Below are positions 11,015-33,107 of a DNA stretch of 64,000 bases, piece by piece. The position numbers and the translations under genes were made by a program. Numbering within the stretch: the stretch's first letter is position 1; every line of letters begins with the position of its first letter. The DNA lies in assembly GCF_009917525.1 (NCBI RefSeq), contig NZ_QZDU01000002.1:434001-498000 (forward strand), in the 5' to 3' direction. This DNA is from Acutalibacter sp. 1XD8-36 (GTDB taxonomy: Bacteria > Bacillota > Clostridia > Oscillospirales > Acutalibacteraceae). The notes under the pieces are model-generated. The model did not search any database and was not told the origin of the DNA. It saw nothing but the letters and a program-made list of their open reading frames with translations.

Positions 11015-11355
11015 TTCTATAACCGCCTCCTAAATCGTTCTTGGGCGTCTTGCTTTTTCCAACACTGTCCCGGGTGTTTCACCGTCCGGCATAGAAAAAC
11101 CGGCAGTCCGCACCAGCGCAAAAAGCGCGGCAGACCCCGGGGACAGAGCCGAAACTCACAGTTTCCTCCAAGGAGCGCACACACGGCCTGCCGGGGGCTG
11201 CCCGGCGGTTCCTGCACCCATCAGATTCCTTCGCCCGGTTTAAAATCGGACATACTCCACGGAAATAACCGGCTGAGTCCACACCGTGAACTCATAGGCC
11301 GCAACCTCCCGCTTCAACGCATATCAGGGCATTAAATACCCATTTGGCAATCGTA
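11015..11355 (-). promoter_or_regulatory. Long untranslated leader of the S10-spc operon
   Basis: No gene is supported between rpsJ and its promoter. The transcribed leader is about 340 nt. It contains GC-rich complementary segments, including CCGCCGGGCAG / CCCCCGGCAGG and CTGCCGG / GCCGG pairs near the rpsJ end. Two overlapping minus-strand frames of 66-67 codons have ribosomal-unlike, Arg/Cys-rich translations and no good ribosome-binding sites, so I treat them as non-coding. A long structured leader is consistent with autogenous control or processing, which is inference. Confidence 0.5.
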
Positions 11356-28541: not shown

Positions 28542-30395
28542 CTATCTTGCGCTAAGCGCCCTGGTAGCGTTGAGCACCGCCAGGACCATTACGCCCACAT
28601 CGGCAAACACTGCCAGCCACATGCCTGTAACCCCCAGAGCTGTCAGCAGCAGCACCAGCCCCTTTACCCCCAGGGCAAACCATATATTTTCCTTCACAAT
28701 GGCAATGGTCCTGCGGGATATGCGTATGGCCAGGCTCAGCTTTGACGGCTTGTCGTCCATAAGCACCACGTCGGCGGCCTCAATAGCCGCGTCCGAGCCC
28801 AGCGCTCCCATGGCTATCCCCACATCGGCCCGGGAGAGCACCGGCGCGTCGTTTATGCCGTCCCCCACAAAGGCCAGCCTGCCACGCCCGGTCCTTTCAC
28901 CCAGCAATTTCTCCACCATGCCCACCTTCCCGGCAGGCATCAGCTCCGTGTGTACCTGGTCTATACCCAGCTCCCTGGTGGCGGCCTCGCCGGCAGCTTT
29001 GCTGTCCCCGGTGAGCATTACAGTTTTTATGCCCCGCTCCCTGAGCTCCTTTACAGCGTCCTTAGAGTCGGCCTTCAGCTGGTCGGCTATGATTATATGT
29101 CCCGCATAGGCTCCGTCCACCGCCACATGCACCACCGTGCCGGCGGCGGTATTCTCAGGGCACCGGGCGCCTATCTCGTCCATAAGCCGCCTGTTTCCGG
29201 CGCAGACGGTCCTGCCGTCCACCTGCACCCGCACTCCCCTGCCGGAGAGCTCCTCAGCCTCGCCCACCCGGGAACGGTCCGGCTCACCGCCCCAGGCCTC
29301 TTTCAGGGAGCGGGATATGGGGTGGTCGGACCAGCTCTCAGCCAATGCCGCCAGCTCCAGCAGCTCCTTTTCAGACATACCCTCGGGATGTATCTCAGTT
29401 ACCTTAAACACACCCTGAGTCAATGTGCCCGTCTTGTCAAATACCACCATATCCGCGGCAGCCAGGGCCTCCATATAGTTGCCGCCCTTTATAAGTATGC
29501 CCTGCCTTGAAGCTCCGCCTATGCCGCCAAAGAAGCTCAAGGGCACAGATATCACCAGGGCGCAGGGGCAGGACACAACCAGGAAGGTGAGCGCGCGCTG
29601 TACCCACTGGCCCCAGCCGCCCATAAACAGCGGCGGTATCACTGCCAGCAGCACCGCGCCTATCACCACTGCCGGGGTGTAGTACCTGGCAAAGCGGGTT
29701 ATAAAATTCTCTGCCCTGGCCTTTTTGCTTGAGGCATTCTCCACCAGGTCCAGAATCTTCGCAACTGTAGACTCTCCGAACTCCTTCTCGACTCTTATCC
29801 TCAGTACCCCCGAAAGATTTACACAGCCGCTGGGCACGCTCTCCCCCGCGCCCACGCTGCGGGGCATACTCTCGCCGGTCAAAGCGGCGGTGTTCAGTGT
29901 GCTGCTGCCCTCTATCACAGTTCCGTCTAAGGGAATCTTCTCTCCCGGCTTCACAACTATGACCCCGCCCACAGGCACATCCTCCGGGTCGACCTGAGCC
30001 ACTTCGCCGTCAGTCTCCAAATTTGCATAGTCCGGCCGCAAATCCATCAGTGAGGATATGGAGCGCCTGGACTTGCCCACGGCATACCCCTGGAACAGCT
30101 CCCCCACCTGATAGAAAAGCATGACAAACACCGCCTCGGGGTACTCGCCCTCCCCAAAGAAGCCTGTGCAGAATGCCCCCATCGTCGCCAGGGCCATCAG
30201 GAAATTTTCATCGAACACCTGACCGTTGGCAATATTCCTCACCGCCCGCCAGAGCACGTCCCAGCCCACCGTGAAGTAGGCCGGCAGGAACAGGGCAAAC
30301 CGCCAGGGCCCTTCATATGGCACCAGCACCGCGGCTATCAGCAGCACGGCTCCTATTATAATGCGCAGGAGCATGGTCTTTTGTCTCTTAGTCAT
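28542..30395 (-). CDS. cadA: Zn2+/Cd2+/Pb2+-exporting P1B-type ATPase
   Basis: A 617-residue heavy-metal efflux ATPase of the cytoplasmic membrane. It has TGES, the membrane CPC motif in SCPCALV, the phosphorylated aspartate in DKTGTLT, the SDHPIS HP motif and GDGINDAP. The last helices carry a Lys (ALGVKGLVLLL) and an Asp (VFADVGVMVLAVLN), the pattern of the Zn/Cd/Pb subgroup. The usual N-terminal HMA domain is missing; it is supplied by the small gene directly upstream. It is the last gene of the ArsR-controlled operon. Confidence 0.94.
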   Translation of the reverse strand: MTKRQKTMLLRIIIGAVLLIAAVLVPYEGPWRFALFLPAYFTVGWDVLWRAVRNIANGQVFDENFLMALATMGAFCTGFFGEGEYPEAVFVMLFYQVGELFQGYAVGKSRRSISSLMDLRPDYANLETDGEVAQVDPEDVPVGGVIVVKPGEKIPLDGTVIEGSSTLNTAALTGESMPRSVGAGESVPSGCVNLSGVLRIRVEKEFGESTVAKILDLVENASSKKARAENFITRFARYYTPAVVIGAVLLAVIPPLFMGGWGQWVQRALTFLVVSCPCALVISVPLSFFGGIGGASRQGILIKGGNYMEALAAADMVVFDKTGTLTQGVFKVTEIHPEGMSEKELLELAALAESWSDHPISRSLKEAWGGEPDRSRVGEAEELSGRGVRVQVDGRTVCAGNRRLMDEIGARCPENTAAGTVVHVAVDGAYAGHIIIADQLKADSKDAVKELRERGIKTVMLTGDSKAAGEAATRELGIDQVHTELMPAGKVGMVEKLLGERTGRGRLAFVGDGINDAPVLSRADVGIAMGALGSDAAIEAADVVLMDDKPSKLSLAIRISRRTIAIVKENIWFALGVKGLVLLLTALGVTGMWLAVFADVGVMVLAVLNATRALSAR

Positions 30396-30407
30396 AGCTC
30401 ATACTCC

Positions 30408-30626
30408 TCACCGCACTATCCGGCAGTCCGGCTCCACCTTCTTGCAGGCCTTCTCAATCTGGTCCATTATCTCCTCAAACCTGCCCTCGTCGGCGGTAAC
30501 TGTCAGCTTCTGCATCATAAAACTCACCGCCGCGTCCTCCACGCCGTCCAGCTTTTTGATGGCAGTCTCCATTTTCGCGGCGCAGTTCGCGCAGTCCAGG
30601 TCGATGAGTTTGAAACGCTTTGTCAT
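30408..30626 (-). CDS. Heavy-metal-associated (HMA) domain protein
   Basis: A 72-residue ferredoxin-like HMA protein with metal-binding cysteines C12 and C15 in DLDCANCAAKME. The Asp before the first Cys is typical of Zn/Cd-type rather than copper-type HMA domains. It lies 12 bases before the ATPase start and stands in for the domain absent from that ATPase, so it probably delivers metal to it. Confidence 0.92.
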   Translation of the reverse strand: MTKRFKLIDLDCANCAAKMETAIKKLDGVEDAAVSFMMQKLTVTADEGRFEEIMDQIEKACKKVEPDCRIVR

Positions 30627-30663
30627 GTAAATTATCCTCTCATTCTAAAAATATTTATATGGT

Positions 30664-31116
30664 TTAATATAAGTGCTTTATATACACCGGGTCGCCGTTT
30701 TTGGCGGCAACGCCCGGGTCGTGCCTATAGCCCTGCTTAATGTAGAAACCGGGGGCGGTGTCCGTGGTCAGCGCTATAGAGGTAACTCCGTGCTCCATAA
30801 AGTACCCCTCCGCAATCCCCAGGAGCTCCGAGCCGCAGCCCCGCCCCCGGTACTCCGGGGCTATCCAGAACTCCCGGATAAAACCCAGGGTCTTTGTCAT
30901 GAACCATCCGGCGCACTCCATGGGGCAGAACTGTATGAACCCCACAGCCTTACCGCCGTCTGTTCGCAGATACGCCAGGTTCCCCCGGCCGTCCGTGTCC
31001 ATCTCCCGGAAAAGCCCCTCCCAGTCCCGGACCGTTATTCCCAGCTCCACGAAGTAGAGCATGAAGCTCTCCCTAAAGCTTTCATCGGTGAAACTGTCAA
31101 TAAGCCTTGTCTCCAT
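30664..31116 (-). CDS. GNAT-family N-acetyltransferase in the metal operon
   Basis: A 150-residue acetyltransferase. Motif A is EFWIAPEYRGRGCGSELLGIAE in spirit, with Q/R-x-x-G-x-G replaced by RGRGCG (about 95-100). A C-terminal FYIKQGY motif follows. Nothing in the sequence ties it to metals, but it sits between the ArsR sensor (9-base gap) and the HMA protein on the same strand, so it should be co-induced. The substrate is unknown. Confidence 0.85.
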   Translation of the reverse strand: METRLIDSFTDESFRESFMLYFVELGITVRDWEGLFREMDTDGRGNLAYLRTDGGKAVGFIQFCPMECAGWFMTKTLGFIREFWIAPEYRGRGCGSELLGIAEGYFMEHGVTSIALTTDTAPGFYIKQGYRHDPGVAAKNGDPVYIKHLY

Positions 31117-31125
31117 CCTATAACC

Positions 31126-31473
31126 TCACTCCTCTATATGCTCCATGCCCTGGTCAAGAATCGTGCGCACGTGGTCGTCCGACAGGGAGTAAAAAATCGT
31201 CTTTCCCTCCCTCCTGTACCGCACCAGCTTCGCTTTTTTCAATACCGCAAGCTGGTGGGAGATAGCCGACTGGGTCATCCCCAAGAGCTCCGCTATCCCG
31301 CACACGCACATGTCCGACTCAAAGAGCACATACAGTATCCTTATCCTCGTTGAGTCCCCGAAGACCTTGAAAAGCTCAGCCAGGTCAAAAAGCTCCTCCT
31401 CGCCGGGCATTATCTCGTTGACCCTCTGCACTGTCTCCTGGTGCACGTGGTTATAGGCCGGCTGTGGCTCCAT
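31126..31473 (-). CDS. ArsR/SmtB-family metal-responsive repressor
   Basis: A 115-residue winged-helix repressor. The recognition helix is MTQSAISHQLAVLKKAKLV (66-84). The alpha-5 zinc site of SmtB/CzrA is complete: D99, H101, H112 and E115 keep the D-x-H-x10-H-x2-E spacing. Residues C56 and C58 (DMCVC) plus N-terminal H9 and H11 could form the alpha-3N site as well. The start at ATG 31471-31473 has AAGGA eight bases upstream. Metal binding should release it from the operator at 31488-31509 and induce the efflux operon. Confidence 0.93.
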   Translation of the reverse strand: MEPQPAYNHVHQETVQRVNEIMPGEEELFDLAELFKVFGDSTRIRILYVLFESDMCVCGIAELLGMTQSAISHQLAVLKKAKLVRYRREGKTIFYSLSDDHVRTILDQGMEHIEE

Positions 31474-31487
31474 TTTCATCATCCTTT

Positions 31488-31567: not shown

Positions 31568-31596
31568 TTTACATTTTTTGGTGGGTGTGGTATGAT
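31568..31596 (+). promoter_or_regulatory. SigA-type promoter of the SLH-protein transcript
   Basis: TTTACA (31568-31573) and TATGAT (31591-31596) are 17 bases apart. Transcription would begin near 31602-31603, exactly at the foot of the large stem that follows. Its -35 is only 28 bases from the -35 of the divergent metal-efflux promoter. Confidence 0.75.
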
Positions 31597-31601
31597 TAAT
31601 T

Positions 31602-31777
31602 TGCGACACAAGTTTAATATTTTTCTCAATCAGTTGTTTGCGTATTTGCTAATGGCAAATACACAGGCTTATTTTCGCATTCAACTGATTGAAGCAGTGA
31701 AAAACTTGTGTCGCAGCAAGAGCCATGTGTTTTGCAGGTGCGTGGCTCTCGGGCTGCGCACTTTTTTGTTTGCGCAG
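31602..31777 (+). ncRNA. Highly structured 5' leader RNA or small RNA, unassigned
   Basis: Nested inverted repeats fill this stretch. The 14-base arm TGCGACACAAGTTT (31602-31615) is perfectly complementary to 31702-31715. Inside it, 31626-31636 pairs with 31682-31692 (11 bp), and GTATTTGC (31642-31649) pairs with 31655-31662 (8 bp). Two more hairpins follow: AGAGCCA/TGGCTCT (31719-31725, 31743-31749) and CTGCGCA/TGCGCAG (31754-31760, 31771-31777). No T-run follows, so the RNA probably continues into the SLH gene 85 bases later. I do not recognise it as a known riboswitch class. Confidence 0.65.
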
Positions 31778-31862
31778 AAACAAAAATGCGAAGGGATGCG
31801 ATGCCGCAAAACATTAGCCTTAGGTAAAAAGACAAACAAAAAATTTATTAGGAGGGACAGAA

Positions 31863-33107
31863 ATGAAAAAGCGCATTTTGTCGCTTATGCTGGTGCTGTG
31901 CTTGGTTATTGGATTATGCCCTATATTTGCTTCTGCCGGGGGAAGAGAAGCTTACCTTGTGGATATGGACGGAACCGTACACCGCCTTGCACTTAGGGGG
32001 GACACTGGCGACGGAAAAACCTGGAGCTTTGATAGGCAAACTGAAACACTAACTTTAAATGGGTATCATGGAAGATGTGTATATGGAATTTTAGAAAATG
32101 TCGTTCTAGCCCATGGAAGCAAAAACAGTCTTGCCGGTATGTACTTGTCAAACCCCGCTATGGGGGATAATAAGGTTTCTATTACTGGCAGTGGTGAACT
32201 AACCTTGAAGCATGATGAATCTCTGTTAAAATTTGATGATTTCAAATGGGGAAGTATCAGTTATGACCCCGGAAGATATCCGAAATATAAATCAGCTTTC
32301 TTTCCGTGCGCGTTGGGTTATGAAGAATACGAAAACACCTCTCGCCCTGGACATTCGAGCATTTCTGTTGATGATAACCTTGCATTAACTGGTGGTACAA
32401 AAGAAGGGGATACTTTCACTCTGAATTTGGAAGGTAAAGAGCATTGTCCCGTTACTCTTTATGGAGGTGAGACCTCGTATTATTTCCTGCAAATGCCCAA
32501 AACCCCCTCAGGCGAAAATGCCAGCTATGTGCGTATAGCTCCCACAGGCTCCAAGCCTCCCAAGCCCACCGAGCCCACCGTTGGCGGCTTCTCCGACGTA
32601 AAGCAGAGCGCCTACTATGCCGACGCGGTACTCTGGGCCGTTGAAAACGGCATAACCAGCGGCATTGGCGGCGGCAAATTCGCCCCTGCCCAGACCTGCA
32701 AGCGCGAGCAGATAGTCACCTTCCTGTACCGCTCCAAGGGCAGCCCACAGGTGAGCATAACAGACCAGTTTACCGACATGCCAAAGTCCGAGGAGTTCCA
32801 GCGGGCCATAAGCTGGGCTGTTGAGAACAATATCACCATGGGCAACGGAAAGGGCCAGTTCAGCCCTGAGAAGGGGTGCACCCGCGCCGAGGCAATGACC
32901 TTTATCTGGCGCGCGGCGGGCAGGCCTGAGCCCAAGACGGAAGCCTCCTTCTCCGATATGCCGTCAAGCTCCGACTTCAGGAAAGCTATAAGCTGGGCCG
33001 TTGAGAACAATATTACCCAGGGTATTGGCAATAATAAGTTCGGGCCCAACAACCCCTGCAACCGTGGACATATCGTGACCTTCCTGTATAACGCAAAGGA
33101 TTTATAA
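31863..33107 (+). CDS. Secreted S-layer-homology (SLH) domain protein
   Basis: A 414-residue exported protein. A signal peptide (KKRILSLMLVLCLVIGLCPIFASA, about 2-25) leads into a region of about 210 residues with a WSFDRQTETLTLNGY motif of the kind found in beta-rich surface domains. A Pro/Lys/Thr linker (PPKPTEPT) comes next. Three SLH repeats (about 238-414) each carry a W-A-V-E-N-x-I-T helix and bind cell-wall polymer. The gene has AGGAGG seven bases before its ATG. The first 600 bases are visibly richer in A/T and use TTA, AAA and GAT codons more than the SLH part, suggesting a mosaic origin. Confidence 0.9.
   Translation: MKKRILSLMLVLCLVIGLCPIFASAGGREAYLVDMDGTVHRLALRGDTGDGKTWSFDRQTETLTLNGYHGRCVYGILENVVLAHGSKNSLAGMYLSNPAMGDNKVSITGSGELTLKHDESLLKFDDFKWGSISYDPGRYPKYKSAFFPCALGYEEYENTSRPGHSSISVDDNLALTGGTKEGDTFTLNLEGKEHCPVTLYGGETSYYFLQMPKTPSGENASYVRIAPTGSKPPKPTEPTVGGFSDVKQSAYYADAVLWAVENGITSGIGGGKFAPAQTCKREQIVTFLYRSKGSPQVSITDQFTDMPKSEEFQRAISWAVENNITMGNGKGQFSPEKGCTRAEAMTFIWRAAGRPEPKTEASFSDMPSSSDFRKAISWAVENNITQGIGNNKFGPNNPCNRGHIVTFLYNAKDL

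Follow-up and report, generated by a model that had tools for sequence, protein, structure and literature searches.

Riboswitches that use a pseudoknot to control transcription termination combine a promoter, a folded domain, mutually exclusive antiterminator and terminator helices, and a long-range pseudoknot. Other leaders are regulated differently: rli53 is an antibiotic-responsive attenuator, and the cwpV-type leader of Clostridioides difficile is an invertible element with flanking inverted repeats in front of a surface protein. The SLH motif, a riboswitch candidate, has been described with 80 examples from Synergistaceae, Clostridia, and Negativicutes, about 60% of them upstream of genes encoding SLH domains (Stav et al. 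2019, PMC6429828).

In the window, by which we mean the whole 64,000-nucleotide stretch of DNA analysed, there is a locus that resembles cwpV in having a surface-protein leader situated between inverted repeats, but unlike those of cwpV its repeats are covarying RNA helices. Judging from sequence, we estimate a probability of about 0.84 that this region acts as a riboswitch-like leader for transcription attenuation, belonging to a family with many carriers across the Clostridia. No description identifiable with this leader RNA was found in the open full-text literature, a coverage that leaves out most subscription papers and all preprints, nor was one identified in passages of PMC11109978 and PMC8632094 or by a term search of PMC2965389. 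The features of the locus are the following:

31568-31596, + strand: promoter, with TTTACA at 31568-31573, a 17-nt spacer, and TATGAT at 31591-31596
31602-31615, + strand: 5' arm of helix P1 and predicted 5' end of the transcript (repeat search, fold, both partners changed at 11 of 12 pairs)
31626-31636, + strand: 5' arm of helix P2, which varies in sequence and keeps its pairing (repeat search, fold, permutation z of -51)
31642-31650, + strand: 5' strand of hairpin P3, rival of the antiterminator for the P3 3' strand (fold, permutation z of -15)
31654-31670, + strand: P3 3' strand and the start of the conserved 3' bulge, together strand A of the pairing PX (GGCAAATACACAGGCTT)
31682-31692, + strand: 3' arm of P2 (repeat search, fold)
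31702-31715, + strand: 3' arm of P1 (repeat search, fold)
31719-31735, + strand: strand B of PX (AGAGCCATGTGTTTTGC), whose first 7 nt (31719-31725) are also the 5' arm of the antiterminator
31738-31767, + strand: intrinsic terminator, a hairpin at 31738-31761 and T6 at 31762-31767, of which 31743-31749 is also the 3' arm of the antiterminator
31850-31855, + strand: Shine-Dalgarno sequence AGGAGG of the downstream gene
31863-33107, + strand: controlled gene, encoding a 414-aa protein with three S-layer homology (SLH) repeats and, by eye, a signal-peptide-like start

The nested inverted repeats reported in the initial annotation (an outer, a middle, and an inner stem, followed by two 7-bp hairpins) are all found where it had placed them. 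P1 joins 31602-31615 to 31702-31715 over 14 nt with 100% complementarity, P2 (31626-31636 with 31682-31692) is embedded in a 17-nt pair of strands that are 88% complementary, and the two 7-nt hairpins are formed by 31719-31725 with 31743-31749 and by 31754-31760 with 31771-31777. RNA folding had been proposed as a check, and it showed that the leader folds far beyond chance, with -73.9 kcal/mol for 31600-31780 compared with -47.9 +/- 3.9 kcal/mol for 200 dinucleotide shuffles (z = -6.6). The statement that the structure ends without a T-run was wrong, since TTTTTT at 31762-31767 stands behind a 9-bp hairpin at 31738-31761, with arms GTGCGTGGC-TCTCGG-GCTGCGCAC, which adjacent pairs extend to 11 bp. 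An arm of this terminator is shared in part with the second small hairpin (31754-31777), whose 7-nt version occurs in 4 of the 178 elements that we parsed, the one in the window included, and which is not a feature of the family.

The other small hairpin, 31719-31725/31743-31749, excludes the terminator and is therefore an antiterminator (AT). In the consensus, the AT 5' half, GGAGC-UA-UGCGUUUUU, is complementary to the terminator 5' arm, and this same half is also complementary to the P3 3' strand and bulge (AAAAAUGCA-n-GCUCU), a pairing that we name PX. In the window PX is long-range and connects 31654-31670 with 31719-31735. Because these strands are shared, the window RNA has two possible states, either P3 with the antiterminator (read-through) or the pseudoknot with the terminator (stop). 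Mutual exclusion of the antiterminator and terminator helices is evident by sequence, AT is conserved, and P3 is linked to the antiterminator through PX. Few of the unpaired positions are conserved, namely an AAUA after P1 and the U-rich bulge.

Rfam 15 gave no match at gathering score over the window element or in 18 related loci. A permissive Rfam search over the element returned sub-threshold matches to miRNA precursors, the best being MIR2593 at 31 bits (E 0.0015, gathering score 96.2), which we take as chance matches of a long hairpin, and Mahella-1 at 12.2 bits versus a gathering score of 70.7. Elsewhere in the window, an S10-Clostridia ribosomal protein leader (RF03136, 42.8 bits) is found at 11231-11326 on the minus strand. 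A blastn search with the leader covered 250 genomes from the taxonomic family of the window; apart from the window's own genome, 31 of 249 had matches at E < 1e-5, and the loci that were parsed have in common P1, P2, P3, the conserved bulge, the antiterminator, and the terminator. Leader blastn matches also occur in two contigs deposited as uncultured human-faecal "phage", MT835845.1 (2060-2244) and MT837627.1 (2222-2346); the one inspected is unannotated, and both may be bacterial DNA.

A covariance model of 163 positions (R1) matched 12 of 29 genomes in the genus (E <= 0.01) and 99 of 391 genomes in the class Clostridia (E <= 0.001; 69 of 318 good-quality genomes and 57 of 223 genera), while in a phylum-wide sample of 398 genomes it matched the window's own genome alone (E <= 1e-4). 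Since the class and phylum searches scored 7 candidates per genome, copy numbers from them are lower bounds and weak members may be missed. Seventeen matches occur in a single relative (G268). The genome of the window contains two leader matches in all (E <= 0.01), the second being a divergent copy at C2:25736-25910 with 63.7 bits. A further copy on the same strand lies at most 450 nt downstream in 19 of 178 elements, and in the arrays L013 and L015, inspected by eye, the second copy comes with a separate promoter-like box. Also by eye, a variant subclass was recognised that is without the U-rich P3 5' strand and has a GGUAAAAA-like hairpin loop, and in which PX retains its complementarity to the antiterminator; its members are L051, L083 (third copy), L092, L094 (second), L159, L160, L163 (second), L173, and L176 (second).

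The usual order of the module is an extended -10 element ending where P1 begins, then P1-P2-P3, the antiterminator, and the intrinsic terminator, in most cases followed by a ribosome-binding site and a gene. The TTTACA-17-TATGAT promoter of the window lies exactly where it had been annotated (31568-31573 and 31591-31596), and its -10 is of the extended kind (TGgTATGAT, 31588-31596). A TATAAT-like hexamer with 5 or 6 of 6 positions matching is found upstream of 160 of 178 elements, compared with 40 of 178 for a control window farther upstream, and in 121 of those 160 the hexamer starts at -11 from the first P1 base. Upstream of the 178 elements, the base composition has TTG at positions -34 to -32 and TGnTATAAT between -14 and -6. 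From this promoter position, the leader RNA is expected to start with the first base of P1 or close to it. At the other end, a T-run of at least 5 stands behind the hairpin in 177 of the 178 elements, which were parsed by a hairpin plus T4. Divergent to the leader, window positions 28542-31476 on the minus strand encode an ArsR-type regulator, a GNAT acetyltransferase, and a P-type ATPase.

Conservation and covariation in related genomes, on which the initial annotation had made its reading depend, are both present (107 alignment rows; 120 elements). In 120 non-redundant elements, the cognate PX duplex has a mean of -17.2 kcal/mol versus -13.9 kcal/mol for non-cognate duplexes, a value reached in 0 of 20000 permutations; PX is at -12 kcal/mol or lower in 119 of the 120, and the cognate duplex beats the median non-cognate one in 88%. 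The same elements gave permutation z values of -10.9 for AT, -51 for P2, and -15 for P3, the P2 and P3 strands being delimited by the PX strand. The values for P1 (-36) and for the terminator helix T (-26) are circular because both helices were parsed by complementarity. These elements come from related genomes, in some cases several from one, and four pairs of control regions taken from them gave z of -0.7 to -1.6, so relatedness alone is not the source of the pairing signal. A candidate pairing of the P1 3' arm with the terminator 3' arm was unsupported (z of -1.6).

A second set of measures came from an alignment of 107 rows (A5) fitted to R1, a model with P1 and T and without PX or AT. For PX, 94.6% of cells are paired versus 91.2 +/- 0.3 after shuffling, and 79 cells are doubly changed versus 16.6 +/- 5.5, both values being reached by 0 of 500 shuffles. 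Two of the five PX measures are unremarkable, namely pairs changed on both sides (32/500) and further pair types (60/500), and PX pair 151-242 is broken in 25 of 105 rows and pair 147-246 in 14 of 105. AT behaves similarly, with 91.3% paired versus 88.2 +/- 0.4 and 53 doubly changed cells versus 16.0 +/- 4.7 (0 of 500 shuffles for each), and with the same two measures unremarkable (70/500 and 16/500, respectively). In this alignment, which was fitted to both helices and thus provides a partly circular test of them, both-side changes occur at 11 of 12 pairs of P1 and 7 of 9 pairs of T, and 100% of the T cells are paired in the 107 rows. P1, PX, and T combined are 97.4% paired. PX is also kept in the second copy from the window's own genome (L093) and in a relative (L044), whose strands are very different (-18.4 and -16.8 kcal/mol).

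The leader RNA is a real and apparently unrecognised family laid out like a riboswitch that terminates transcription, with an orphan effector. The earlier interpretation is supported in part. Its idea of a structured leader with a regulatory role and outside the known classes holds, given the lack of an Rfam gathering match, the predicted transcript start at P1, and the covariation; it had overlooked the terminator, the alternative pairings, and the family itself.

We counted a downstream start codon where it had a Shine-Dalgarno sequence, opened at least 40 codons, and lay within 260 nt of the terminator hairpin. By this count 129 of 159 non-tandem elements have a gene start downstream, at a median of 27 nt from the hairpin, and the scripted search found no qualifying start codon within 260 nt for the remaining 30. 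Among the 25 commonest Pfam families per scan, matches in 126 downstream proteins, several of which come from one genome, include BspA-type LRR_5 (28), XRE-type HTH (9, the nine being like proteins that all come from G268), SLH (7), copper amine oxidase N-terminal domains (7), ABC transporter ATPases (5), and MazE antitoxin-like domains (5). Of the 126, 29 are truncated where the retrieved DNA ends, which makes the counts of C-terminal domains, SLH among them, too low; the upper bound for SLH is 36 of 126. The gene context of these 126 proteins revealed no common pathway and no ligand candidate, and such a mixture of downstream genes may point to a general signal rather than to one pathway. 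We expect that the leader probably decides between read-through and early stop for the gene behind it, which is often one for a secreted or surface protein. A regulator specific to SLH genes was rejected, as the window's own genome has 65 SLH matches in many open reading frames and two leader matches; the leader at C2:25736-25910 precedes a protein that we take as one of two DUF4230 members. The same genome contains SLH-domain stretches with an in-frame TGA at G000:C63:83081-83212 and C1:39560-39679.

Relatives of the window gene occur with different leaders. The L032 protein has an SLH half 95% identical to that of the window protein and a different start, and the L102 gene is, by eye, another relative; the leaders of both have P2 sequences quite unlike the window's, and the PX strands of L102 differ too and are still paired. 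At L102 (572-928) an intact leader is followed by a gene whose first codons and ribosome-binding site are missing and whose reading frame stops after 119 codons; this may be a broken copy. Upstream of a further relative of the window SLH gene, at L033 (2170-2270), a promoter and a short P1-like stem are left by eye, and R1 finds no leader there. In G268, loci L083-L090 and L092 each have a near-identical 68- to 70-aa XRE-type HTH gene behind the leader, some of them with tandem leaders, which looks like a spreading cassette of leader plus regulator.

Several other explanations of this element have to be weighed. A stable small RNA of about 166 nt, ending at the T-run and leaving gene expression to incidental read-through, would have its own promoter and a strong terminator as seen here, and 30 of 159 elements are without a nearby start codon found. 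We consider this unlikely, since the other 129 non-tandem elements are upstream of a Shine-Dalgarno start at a median of 27 nt, and since a plain small RNA has no need for the competing antiterminator that compensatory change has kept. The idea of a mere 5' stabiliser, which had also been raised, is disfavoured on similar grounds, as stabilisation does not need mutually exclusive antiterminator and terminator helices. These helices would suit ribosome-mediated attenuation through a small leader peptide, and member L020 is faintly like rli53 (21.7 bits versus a gathering score of 70; E 0.021 with the stretch searched alone). However, a Shine-Dalgarno start lies within the leader in 6 of 120 elements compared with 12 of 120 after one shuffle, and the frames that begin at an AUG-like triplet of the antiterminator, seen in 83 of 120, vary widely in length. 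On the count of Shine-Dalgarno starts we reject a ribosome-mediated attenuator as very improbable.

A mobile repeat that carries a promoter and has no regulatory RNA function would account for the many copies per genome (17 in G268), the tandem copies (19 of 178), and the dispersed leader and XRE cassettes of G268. Copying alone does not explain helices that are kept despite sequence change, though, and the element keeps a largely constant position with respect to promoter and start codon; IMG/VR gave 0 matches to two exact patterns and blastn of one member gave no plasmid, results on which a virus or plasmid origin was rejected as well. This reading is distinctly improbable as a replacement for regulation, and spreading and regulation by the leader are not mutually exclusive. 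The perfect 14-bp inverted repeats around 86 bp upstream of a surface gene had also suggested an invertible DNA switch, for which the genome's integrase (22) and resolvase (29) matches elsewhere could act in trans. We reject it, with a chance that is close to negligible, because the helices are compensated and nested and pair with sequence outside the repeats: the arms vary between copies and stay complementary, P2 and P3 are nested within them, and P3 and the bulge find their partner beyond them (120 elements). In addition, the 64-kb window (C21:434001-498000) has no match to PF00589 (phage integrase) or PF00239 (resolvase).

For the attenuation leader that we favour, fold energies indicate how the two states might be balanced. 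The nested minimum-energy fold contains the antiterminator in 84 of 120 elements and the terminator in 36 of 120, and before any pseudoknot penalty PX together with T has a median advantage of 6.6 kcal/mol over the best nested fold. From these energies the two states plausibly have similar stability, as one would expect of a switch. We infer that termination takes place in vivo, which of the states is ON, and that an effector exists. RNA polymerase would start at P1, and P1, P2, and P3 would fold first. With P3 closed, the AT 5' half would pair with the terminator 5' arm and the gene would be transcribed; were the P3 3' strand and bulge handed to the AT 5' half to form PX, the terminator would form and transcription would stop at about 31767. 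The choice would probably be set by an effector acting on P2/P3 or the pseudoknot region. Because the P1-P2 stem is long, PX needs a bend, which we would place at the P1/P2 internal loop, the site of the conserved AAUA.

About one-quarter of the sampled class genomes (99 of 391) carry the leader, some in many copies, without an Rfam 15 match at the curated thresholds. If it works as proposed, it would bring to light a clostridial regulon made up of surface, secreted, and small regulatory proteins, and it would be a clean and testable strand-swap switch with an orphan effector. A broader proposal, which we offer tentatively and at somewhat less than even odds, is that these RNAs constitute a new class of riboswitch that many Clostridia carry. 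In this proposal the P3/PX strand swap sets termination, a general signal is sensed, and a portable module of promoter plus switch, spreading within genomes, sets the expression of surface proteins and small regulators.

Among described leaders, rli53 of Listeria (RF01481) has a local likeness to the antiterminator/terminator stretch of L020, but L020 is far below the gathering score (21.7 versus 70 bits) and the family is without a leader peptide. The SLH motif is the closest published lead; as far as its description goes, it is like this family a structured leader of Clostridia that often precedes SLH genes and has an orphan effector. Compared by description only, about 60% of SLH-motif examples are upstream of SLH genes versus 7 of 126, or at most 36 of 126, for this family, and the motif also occurs in Synergistaceae and Negativicutes, whereas the phylum sample yielded this leader in the window's own genome alone. 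The gene associations of the two thus seem to differ, and the published SLH-motif set may be a subset of related RNAs. Pseudoknot riboswitches are similar to this family in their promoter, folded domain, exclusive antiterminator and terminator, and long-range pseudoknot. The family differs from them in having no known ligand, no common pathway among its downstream genes, and few conserved unpaired positions, and in that its pseudoknot strand is itself the anti-antiterminator.
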